Below, in pieces: positions 56,501 to 61,330 of a stretch of DNA of 64,000 nt; the first letter of the stretch is position 1, and the number at the start of each line of letters is the position of its first letter. Made by a program: the position numbers and the translations under genes. The stretch comes from Onchocerca volvulus (lineage: Eukaryota > Nematoda > Chromadorea > Rhabditida > Onchocercidae): positions 9,918,888 to 9,982,887 of the forward strand of contig HG738138.1 of the NCBI GenBank assembly GCA_000499405.2, read 5' to 3'. A model generated the notes under the pieces. The model did no database searches. It had not been told where the DNA came from and saw only the letters and a list, made by a program, of their open reading frames with translations.

Positions 56501-57975
56501 ACACGACTTACTGTAGGGTTCGATGAATAAAGAGGACGATGCTTATGAAACATTTCCAATTTACGGCGCAGTGCTGATCATTGTTGTTTATATTGCACTT
56601 TGTTCATTCATATTTCGCATATGGGAACATTGGGATTATTTCACCGCTTTCTACTTCTTCTTCATCTCTTTAACCACCGTTGGACTGGGCGACGAAATGC
56701 CAGGTCATCCCCATTTTGCCTGCGGTAAATCCCTTTCACATTCAGTTCTTTGTGAATCCATCTTTACTCACTGCTAGCAGTTGCGATTTGATGAGTCTCC
56801 AACGTATCTTTCTCTCCCTCTTTTTGTTTTCCTGGCCTAACTCACTACCTTTCAGCTTACGTAAATTATTAAATATGATTTGGGTGGTTAAAAATTTATG
56901 CATAAATGAGTGTACTTTGTTCTCAGTATTTTTCATATTTTTCATCGTTGGACTGGCTCTGGTATCGATGTGTGTATCAAGCGTACAGATGGAATTCGAA
57001 ATGAGATTCATGAAAGCAATCAATCTGATCGATGAATATAGTAGAGAGCGACAACGTCGAGATCAGAAAAACTTGCTCAAAACTATCGGTAACTTCTACA
57101 TTTTTCTCCTTTTCAAATGATAAGGGTAATTAAATAATCAGTATCCTTTCTGTTGCATTGACAACGAAATCTTGTGTTTAAAAGGAGGAACGTTCAAGGC
57201 AACGATTTTCTCTGTTGAGAACTTATCATTTAGACTTATTTTTTTTTAATAGATATAAATTATATTTCAGGAGGTCCAGTAAGATTCATGAACTCAGTCC
57301 CTGTGTTGAACCCGATTGCGTTTATACCAATTGTTTCAAATGATCTCACAAAAGAACGGTACCTGTTTTATGACTATTTATGCTTTCGTGCGCTGCAATG
57401 ACTAACCCATCAGCAAAAACGCCGCATGCCGCGGGTGTTGACATTTCAGTATATTCATTTTCCACACTTCTGCATATGTTCACACTGATCCCAGTTCATT
57501 TCACCAATTGGAAAGTGATCATCATTTCAAGTTTCTGAATTATTAAATCAATCTTCAGTGCAAAACATATAGTCATGCCCGATTTCTTTCACAAATAGCT
57601 AAATGCTTTAAAGGAAGAATAAGTCTTGTTCAGTTGATCCAAACTATTTCAATTGGGTTAATTCTTGCAAATCGCTTTGATCAGGAGTGAGTGCCCAGCA
57701 GAAACACATGAAGCATGCAGTAACTCTTCATACTCCAGTATCTCATATCTGTTACTCATGAAGCTCGGATCATAGTGATATTAGTCGAGCTATCCTTCAT
57801 AGTCATACTGTTACTACTTAAATAGTTGTTGAAATGAGGTTTCAGATACAGGCATGTGCCTTCGGAAGAGTCACAGCAGATCTTCCAAAAAATGCCTTCC
57901 GTACTGGAAACAGTATTGTGTCGAACAAACATGCGGCTTTCTAAAATGAAAAGACAAGAAACTATATCAGCGTAA
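53523..57975 (+). CDS. Two-pore-domain (TWK/K2P) potassium channel, 534 aa
   Basis: K2P channels carry background K+ current as dimers in the plasma membrane. Fourteen in-phase exons: 53523-53576, 53673-53816, 54192-54289, 54650-54827, 54894-55001, 55337-55451, 55657-55843, 55913-55971, 56305-56327, 56410-56460, 56517-56724, 56927-57088, 57271-57358, 57846-57975. TM1 is CVLLLLVLIAYALFGGFLVH (about 123-142), followed by FEAPAE and an extracellular cap. Pore 1 filter TTIGYGN lies at 230-236, TM2 at RIFTILYALLGVPYMLIVLN, TM3 at IYGAVLIIVVYIALCSFIF, pore 2 filter TTVGLGD at 392-398, and TM4 at FFIFFIVGLALVSMCVSS. The 98-residue cytosolic N-terminus is longer than in most K2Ps and is basic then acidic. 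Exons 56305-56327 (23 nt) and 56410-56460 (51 nt) in the TM2-TM3 loop are short and less certain. The stop at 57973-57975 lies within a GTAAGT-like donor, so a longer isoform is possible. Which twk gene is unclear. Confidence 0.88.
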
Positions 57976-59689: not shown

Positions 59690-61330
59690 ATACTTGTGGG
59701 TATACAATATTTTTTGTTATTCTGTGTGGATATAGAGGTTACCTGGTTTGCTGACTTTAAAATACGCCAACACATAATTGTTCATATGAGAAGCAATAGG
59801 TCTCTTGATCTAAAAGGCACAATTCCAAAAATTGGTCTTGAGCTTTGTTAATGGTGAATGTAAACGCCAGTCGAATTAGGAATTGCAATTTCTTAAGCTG
59901 AAATGGCACATCCGTTGGAATCATAAGAATGCGAGGAATAAGGACATCTTCATCTTTGGAAGGTCCTGTCAAGAATGTTGTTTTACGACATTGCTCATCA
60001 ATTTTTATACTGCAAGCTGCTGCCGTTGCAAAGTTTTGGCTAGTTGATATTTCGCAACATGATAACTGGCATGCTATTTTCAGTTGCAGTACGTGCGGTG
60101 GCATCTGTGGCAGATCGAGTGAATTCAAAAATTCTGTTGGATAATTAACGGCTTCATCTGCTTTCATAATAGTGTCGACGGACTTGTATGTGACTGACTC
60201 TTTTTGCATGTTAGACTGAATAATATTATGAAAGTCTTTGAACGTCTTTGTTCTTGGCCGCAAGAATAGTCTTCACTTAGCCAATCGTGATCCTTAGAAT
60301 TGGTTTGAATATCGGGAAATTTTTTTCAACCAATTCTCCTTTTGACGTTACTAAATTGCAGAAATTATGAGGCAATGAAATTCATCTTGAGGTCAGATCA
60401 ACCGGCATCTTTCCGTCCCAAATTTCCAGCAATCGATGTAAGAGAATCCAAGTTGATCAATCGTTTTTAAGTTGAACACGCATATTTTAGTCAGTTCTTA
60501 CGTTTTGTTTCCGACGCAAGTTTACATCGAACAAAGCAGTAACAGATCGATTCTTTGATGGCATTCTCAATTGATTAAGAACTTTGTTCGCGATTTGTAA
60601 GCACAAGTTTTCAATCATTATCAACGCTTCATTGTAGATTTCTGCTGTGAAATCCATGTTCATATTTGAATCCTTCAGTTATATGCGATTCATATTTCTC
60701 CCATAACTCTGTTGGAAATGAAGAAGAGCAGGCGATCAGTATGACTGCAAACAGTGTACGAATTCGATTTAGATGTGACGTGTTGCATGCGTCATTAATG
60801 CATACATCCAGTGTCGGTCGTTGTCAGAACAACTGTATCCCATAAAAAAAACTTCTCAGCCTATCCCTAACAACACAGTTGTATTCATTATCAATCCTCC
60901 ATCTTCTATCATTTTCGAATTTATCCAATTCAGCGATAGGCCGTCTCTACAACCCGGTCATTTCATCTCAGTTACTTAAAATTCCCTTGTTACTCCTCTA
61001 TTATATTAGTAGTCTCGCAATTAATTTTTCCATGCTATTGATTTAATATCTGTAATTATCACGTTTATTGATGTAATGCTTGTATTTGTCATGCTTTGCA
61101 TTATCAAATTTTTCTAAACGGTTTAATTACCCAAGTTTGAGGTTGCGCTGAAAACAAAATTTCCCGACAGATAGGGAACGCTTTGATTCGGCGGTATATT
61201 TGGCAAGCAAAGCTTTTAATGGCTCTGATGGTTCTTCAAGTTGAGGTGGTTTAATTTTTCCGGTGGCGCAACACATTTCTTTCGTCTTATAAGCTGGACT
61301 TTGCATGATCCTAAGAAATTTCACAGCATG
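59690..61330 (-). pseudogene. Degenerate Helitron helicase (Pif1-like), minus strand
   Basis: Minus-strand segments match the Helitron RepHel protein in order. Upstream, at 61324-61190: CCATGKIKPPQLEEPSEPLK and LLAKYTAESK (the Helitron-like region before the helicase). Around 60760-60500: FPTELWEKYESH and fragments of a following segment. Around 60360-60220: FCNLVTSKGELVEKIFP and DHDWLSEDY. At 60200-59760: NYPTEFLNSLDLPQMPPHVL, LTGPSKDEDVLIPRI, TDVPFQLKKLQF and TINKAQDQFLELC, then VSKPGNLYIHTE to about 59690. The Walker A/NTPase core is missing between 60500 and 60360, and several frameshifts and stops occur, so it cannot encode a working transposase. Rolling-circle Helitrons use the Rep and helicase parts to move. 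The 5' and 3' ends of this copy were not located. Confidence 0.85.
61120..61141 (+). other. Exact copy of nematode spliced leader SL1 (22 nt)
   Basis: The + strand starts GGTTTAATTA at 61120 and ends CCAAGTTTGAG at 61141, matching the 22-nt SL1 leader at every position. It is not followed by an SL RNA body: the next bases are GTTGCGCTG instead of the usual GTAAAC-type donor, no Sm-site context is evident, and no 5S rRNA lies nearby. It abuts the antisense of the Helitron N-terminal region. A trans-spliced antisense transcript copied back into the genome would explain it, but this is inference. Confidence 0.85.

Follow-up and report, generated by a model that had tools for sequence, protein, structure and literature searches.

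How an intact nematode spliced leader came to lie next to Helitron DNA is the question raised by the stretch of Onchocerca volvulus DNA analyzed here, a 64,000-nucleotide segment referred to below as the window. Positions 61120 to 61141 of the plus strand match SL1 (GGTTTAATTACCCAAGTTTGAG) at 22 of 22 bases and run directly into GTTGCG, as the original prediction had described. This was the sole match in the window at three or fewer mismatches, and none of 100 shuffled sequences gave a match, in keeping with the earlier view that chance is a very unlikely source. No SL RNA body follows the leader: Rfam reported no SL1 RNA in the locus spanning 61120 to 61141 (L009), while it did report SL1 RNA in five units of the genome's tandem array (L001). 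The predicted lack of an SL RNA body was thus confirmed. With GTTGCG behind the leader and no Rfam SL1 match, the broken SL RNA gene (an SL RNA relic) that had been offered as an alternative found no support at this site.

The leader belongs to a BEL/Pao-type retrotransposon, as an integral segment of its long terminal repeat (LTR), and not to the Helitron. It lies in sense orientation within a 348-bp solo LTR, 28 bases before the LTR 3' end. The region is composed as follows.

60503..60821, minus strand: flank X, of Helitron origin, separated from flank Y by about 1 kb of Helitron sequence in L028 and L036
60822..61169, plus strand: solo LTR of 348 bp with ends TGTCAGAA...TCCCGACA, a member of a BEL/Pao-type cluster
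60822..61119, plus strand: U3-like part of the LTR (putative U3), without AATAAA before SL1
61120..61141, plus strand: exact SL1, putative R region and trans-splice acceptor
61142..61169, plus strand: U5-like LTR end of 28 bases (putative U5)
61170..61285, minus strand: flank Y, of Helitron origin, with similarity to L010, L011, and L014 continuing to about 62955

The LTR ends read TGTC...GACA, that is, they are of the TG...CA type, and its relatives share these termini. It belongs to a cluster of 21 loci, together with the LTRs of L013, L015, L027, L035, and L069; L012, L016, and L018 are close relatives in which SL1 is inexact. No target duplication borders the window LTR (GTCGT precedes it and GATAG follows), and L013, L015, and L027 carry window-type termini with 5-bp target duplications. 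The window subfamily, unlike most relatives, has lost the AATAAA hexamer before SL1. A retrocopied trans-spliced mRNA with SL1 at its 5' end was rejected for the window, as its SL1 sits within a multicopy LTR. The A-tail and target duplication proposed as signs of an insertion around the junction are likewise missing: no A-tailed retrocopy was seen, the flanking pentamers differ, and SL1 is internal to the LTR. Elsewhere in the window, Ion_trans_2 was matched by an exon-like segment at positions 56517 to 56777, which probably belongs to a potassium channel gene.

A search of the genome (94.7 Mb in 115 contigs), which the original prediction had suggested, returned 434 exact SL1 copies, and the same LTR arrangement recurs across the genome. 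A 313-bp array on contig C1 held 95 of the 100 SL1 places listed; the five array units scanned are SL1 RNA genes by Rfam. The base after SL1 was other than G in 80 copies (73 A, 7 T, and 0 C), and in 122 copies SL1 was followed by GT and then C, G, or T. Intact SL RNA sequence is therefore absent behind at least 202 of the 434 exact copies; the remaining 232 were kept as one undivided class. We read 156 of 180 listed places (70 of the 80 non-G copies and 86 of the 100 listed among the 122), which amounted to 145 distinct loci after identical contexts were merged. On the basis of upstream sequence, 142 of these fell into five clusters of 71, 26, 22, 21, and 2 loci, formed by single linkage, such that one cluster may contain several families.

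Only three of the 145 loci lay outside the LTR clusters. Two of them (L139 and L144) look like SL RNA relics, in which degraded sequence akin to SL RNA trails an exact SL1; L144 also has a 5S rRNA match. The third (L150; C5:10846798-10846820, minus strand) has an exact SL1 followed by AAATGAATATG, with neither an LTR cluster nor an SL RNA body, and is the sole locus read that might represent a retrocopied trans-spliced mRNA; as a true retrocopy it was rejected, as inspection by eye of 1.5 kb downstream revealed no A-tail or target duplication. We also noted an SL1-LTR stretch repeated in a tandem array with a unit of about 1674 bases (C5:15610007, 15611681, and 15613355), whose units are 99.8 to 100% identical over the 572 bases read.

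Target duplications, coding domains, and genomic neighborhood identify the SL1-bearing repeats as LTRs of BEL/Pao-type elements. Among the 34 SL1 loci with long flanks, TGT...CA ends were bordered by a perfect 5-bp target duplication in 15, compared to a mean of 1.02 of 34 when ends were swapped between loci, and the distance from the end of SL1 to the end of the LTR was 27 to 125 bases. In the window's cluster, L069 comprises Pao-type domains (DUF1759, DUF1758, RVT_1, Peptidase_A17, Integrase_H2C2, and DUF5641) between two LTRs (L060 and L061), each with SL1, and TGGTGCC, a candidate primer binding site, lies 5 bases past the 5' LTR. SL1 was found within 6 kb of a Pao peptidase match at at least 12 of 93 and at least 8 of 61 places, versus 0.8 and 0.5 at random; the places were those on the five large contigs, and the counts are lower bounds since 100 of 141 peptidase matches were used. 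The two lay on the same strand in 18 of 20 pairs. Two Pao-flanking LTR pairs are 99.8% identical over 519 bases, which indicates recent movement of SL1-LTR elements. At C5:7027861-7041474, two SL1-bearing LTRs that are 96.3% identical and 13.6 kb apart surround a Pao match, which lies in a frame reported open for 4187 amino acids.

SL1 has been placed within defined LTR boundaries, a poly(A) signal abuts it in most relatives, and its edges carry recurrent AG-anchored changes. AATAAA directly abuts SL1 in 92 of the 142 clustered loci and stands one base away in a further 13, for a total of 105; by cluster, the counts are 48/71, 23/26, 20/22, 13/21, and 1/2. When a 28-mer of AATAAA and SL1 was searched with three mismatches allowed, 665 matches were obtained, and the 100 listed were all exact and so were uninformative about variants. 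RNA is cut 10 to 30 bases past a poly(A) signal; accordingly placed, the 3' end of the element RNA would fall in or just after SL1, where the R region of an LTR is required to be. SL1 also appears better kept than its surroundings. In eight window-family copies, SL1 was identical at 165 of 176 positions, versus 2055 of 2497 for the rest of the LTR (Fisher P = 2.5e-5); this set was chosen by whole-LTR similarity, with overlapping duplicates counted once and the window excluded, and the SL1-containing bait may bias it. An edge pattern for cluster 1, which favors well-preserved copies, gave 13 of 15 slots with an exact SL1, one with an exact SL1 plus TTTGAG, and one with a single mismatch. The SL1 column identity of 1.00 in the family alignments is a product of picking exact copies and is not evidence of upkeep.

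From these sequence features, we consider it probable that the element RNA gains the host SL1 by trans-splicing, that SL1 serves as the R region, and that the window holds a solo LTR of such an element. Transcription would start upstream of SL1 in the 5' LTR, and the RNA would be trans-spliced to the host SL1, with the LTR-borne SL1 (...CCAAGTTTGAG plus a purine) as the acceptor. Because of trans-splicing onto the LTR-borne SL1, the copied RNA would begin with SL1-U5. At the other end, the RNA, cut shortly past AATAAA, would terminate within the SL1 that the 3' LTR carries or shortly beyond it, and SL1 could then act as the repeat for the first strand transfer. New copies of the element would in this way receive their leader from the host SL RNA genes. 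Whether the host leader is in fact renewed in each cycle by trans-splicing onto the LTR's own SL1 copy is, judged from the sequences, an evenly balanced matter; renewal, if true, would keep the sequence used for strand transfer in step with that of the host.

If the LTR's own SL1 is the acceptor, variants at its edge are to be expected. The LTR sequence AATAAAG-GTTTAATTACCCAAG-TTTGAG offers three AGs in the transcript. Use of the last AG gives SL1-U5, the form of most loci; use of the middle AG gives SL1-TTTGAG-U5, seen in 7 of the 142 loci, in clusters 0, 1, and 2; and use of the first AG gives two SL1 copies in tandem, the second missing its initial G, an arrangement seen once in a somewhat decayed form (L206). 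These TTTGAG variants and the tandem are what trans-splicing onto the LTR-borne SL1 predicts, and AG-anchored junction variants, as expected of elements using the host SL1 as R, are present. All 7 genome-wide copies in which T follows SL1 are of the TTTGAG kind, and two of the seven TTTGAG loci (L042 and L043) represent one segmental duplication. The closest relatives may differ in little besides the six bases, as do L130 and L064, which are 97.9% identical over 532 bases. A degenerate six-base repeat, GTTGAG, occurs in L027 (cluster 3). A purine follows SL1 in 135 of the 142 exact loci; the TTTGAG loci make up the remaining 7. Within clusters, the recurrent shift of the U5 start is six bases; the other shifts are of one base (clusters 0 and 2) or, once each in cluster 0, of 10 and 34 bases. 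When directly adjacent SL1 tandems with exact ends were required, none was found, the L206 tandem being inexact. We took clusters and not loci as the unit of counting, since a block might be passed among the members of a cluster through recombination at SL1.

In five loci (L053, L073, L081, L128, and L131), a second, decayed SL1-like tail (AGTTTGAG and then ATTCG) lies on the U5 side, about 50 to 70 bases past the exact SL1. These double leaders give the impression of a new leader placed upstream of one already present. A pair of SL1-like sequences akin to the L053 subgroup was observed at C2:17264641.

The same junctions bear on an explanation that we regard as rather unlikely, namely that an ancestral Pao LTR captured SL1 once and that the leader was then inherited under selection, with the junction changes arising as replication slips. 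Selection would here act on a function of the DNA or RNA, with no new trans-splicing per cycle. A single origin is possible in that the clusters have termini in common and also some of the sequence around SL1. Slips, however, predict repeats of many lengths, whereas a search for repeats of the SL1 tail from 3 to 15 bases found the 6-base one only, in 7 of 142 loci. Moreover, this repeat occurs next to U5 sequences that are unrelated across three clusters, and the lone tandem begins right after AATAAAG.

A variant of SL1 with T at base 11 cuts both ways. It occurs 27 times genome-wide, about fourfold the 7 copies of a T-at-base-12 control, and three of the four inexact window-family copies carry it; its being overly common fits inheritance from a single capture. 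All 20 of the 27 copies that were read matched members of the SL1-LTR set, their best matches being spread over the five clusters, and the variants have close canonical-SL1 relatives (for instance, 97% to L107). Thus, the variant is not one inherited subfamily, which counts against a single capture. The base after the variant SL1 is a purine in 17 of 20 loci. The excess could equally stem from a mutation hot spot, from a variant SL RNA of the host, or from recurrent inheritance; it counts against strict renewal of SL1, an objection offset in part by the L206 tandem.

Further observations count against SL1 as the R region. A young Pao element on C4 (C4:8992902-9001005; C4:8996576) has a 2267-amino-acid frame, a target duplication (ACAGG), and LTR pieces that are 98.7% and 100% identical; SL1 is absent from its LTR, with a best match of 14 of 22 in the pieces read, while many SL1-bearing relatives occur in the genome. 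Pao replication can therefore proceed independently of SL1. This element, the base-11 excess, and the AATAAA-less window subfamily were all weighed against the proposed role. So were the features sought upstream. TATA-like motifs upstream of SL1 are clear in clusters 0 and 3, hardly present in cluster 1, and not found upstream in cluster 2; being clear in two clusters only, they were rejected as proof of an upstream start. AG was depleted in the presumed outron (373 versus 590 expected), and this was rejected as an outron signature because it is unspecific, AC and CT dropping equally. In addition, the usual splice acceptor is TTTCAG, and the TTTGAG at the end of SL1 is weak by comparison, which speaks against trans-splicing at this position. 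Finally, a single TTTGAG U5 block could spread within a cluster by template switching.

We also considered that SL1 in the LTR is itself the start of transcription, such that the RNA begins with SL1 by initiation and not by trans-splicing, and judge this improbable. SL1 belongs to the promoter in the SL RNA genes of Ascaris, R would still begin at SL1, and the preceding AATAAA would still put the 3' end within R. Nonetheless, the sequence upstream of SL1 in the LTRs did not resemble that of SL RNA genes, with a best score of 19.0 of 43 versus 18.6 for shuffles, in a comparison in which only one of two relic controls (32 and 23) stood out. In addition, initiation at SL1 does not predict the TTTGAG repeats, which trans-splicing onto the LTR-borne leader does.

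We return to the site in the window. The repeat next to the LTR is a Helitron, as originally proposed, since other copies of it (L026, L028, and L037 among others) carry Helitron_like_N matches; the window open reading frame at 59757-60272 has a Pif1 2B match under the Pfam cutoff, and the short pieces at the LTR/Helitron junction gave no Pfam match. The LTR stands in place of about 1 kb of Helitron, as judged from L028 and L036, in which the two flanks are about 1 kb apart; the Helitron_like_N match of L028 falls within this gap. Two window-type LTRs whose starts are 889 bases apart occur in L013. The window's solo LTR probably arose by recombination between two LTRs about 1 kb apart in one Helitron, and such an event would account for the loss of Helitron sequence as well as for the absence of a target duplication. 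That a trans-spliced antisense Helitron transcript was reverse transcribed and inserted here is hardly credible: the window SL1 does lie near Helitron sequence of the opposite direction, but LTR copies elsewhere have the same SL1 and flanks, with target duplications and no need of a Helitron, and no exact SL1 was found in the Helitron copies L028 and L036.

The original prediction fared unevenly on these points. It placed SL1 antisense at the edge of a Helitron remnant; the Helitron does read the opposite way nearby, but the leader is inside an LTR. Its core idea of a reverse-transcribed trans-spliced RNA gained support, while a Helitron origin and an insertion of that RNA at this spot did not. 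The antisense transcript through the Helitron fails because the unit that carries SL1 is the LTR, and the junction between SL1 and its flank is common to the LTR copies instead of to all Helitron copies.

If the proposed role of SL1 is correct, a host RNA-processing step becomes a step of reverse transcription, and an LTR retrotransposon lineage has ceded a portion of its terminal repeat to the host. Such elements would allow the study of a retroelement that relies on trans-splicing by its host. They would also explain the scattered SL1 copies of filarial genomes and caution against counting these as SL RNA genes.

Parts of this picture are already on record. SL1 beside Pao elements has been reported in Brugia malayi, whereas no account of SL1 as an R region was found in the literature available to us; the search missed subscription reports on Tas and is not proof of novelty. 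In B. malayi, 120 scattered "intrinsic" SL1 copies lie outside the SL RNA arrays, 60 of them within 1 kb of PAO retrotransposons and sometimes on each side of the element on the same strand, from which the integration of trans-spliced element RNAs was inferred (Foster et al. 2020, PMC7181701). O. volvulus likewise has scattered SL1 copies beside Pao elements and outside the SL RNA arrays. Unlike the SL1 within LTRs described here, those copies are termed flanking, and the available parts of that account mention no LTR boundary, poly(A) signal, R region, acceptor use, or renewal (PMC7181701). In flatworms, SL-like loci have been linked to LTR and LINE elements, and 597 discarded loci have partial leaders within mobile elements (PMC12582326). 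These too were attributed to element RNAs that had been trans-spliced, but they differ in phylum, in the leader itself, and in being partial, and the portions available give no mechanism of LTR replication (PMC12582326). The domains and LTR ends of L069 fit the BEL/Pao group, which includes Tas of Ascaris; a spliced leader in the LTR is not mentioned in the BEL/Pao account as far as it was available (PMC3118150). Cer1 of Caenorhabditis elegans differs in being of the Ty3/Gypsy type and in carrying SL1 on a spliced 2.4-kb mRNA and not on the 8-kb RNA, and SL1 in its LTR is not mentioned in the parts available (PMC3315495). Nevertheless, Cer1 is a nematode LTR element whose RNA can be trans-spliced to SL1, as we propose for the elements described here (PMC3315495).
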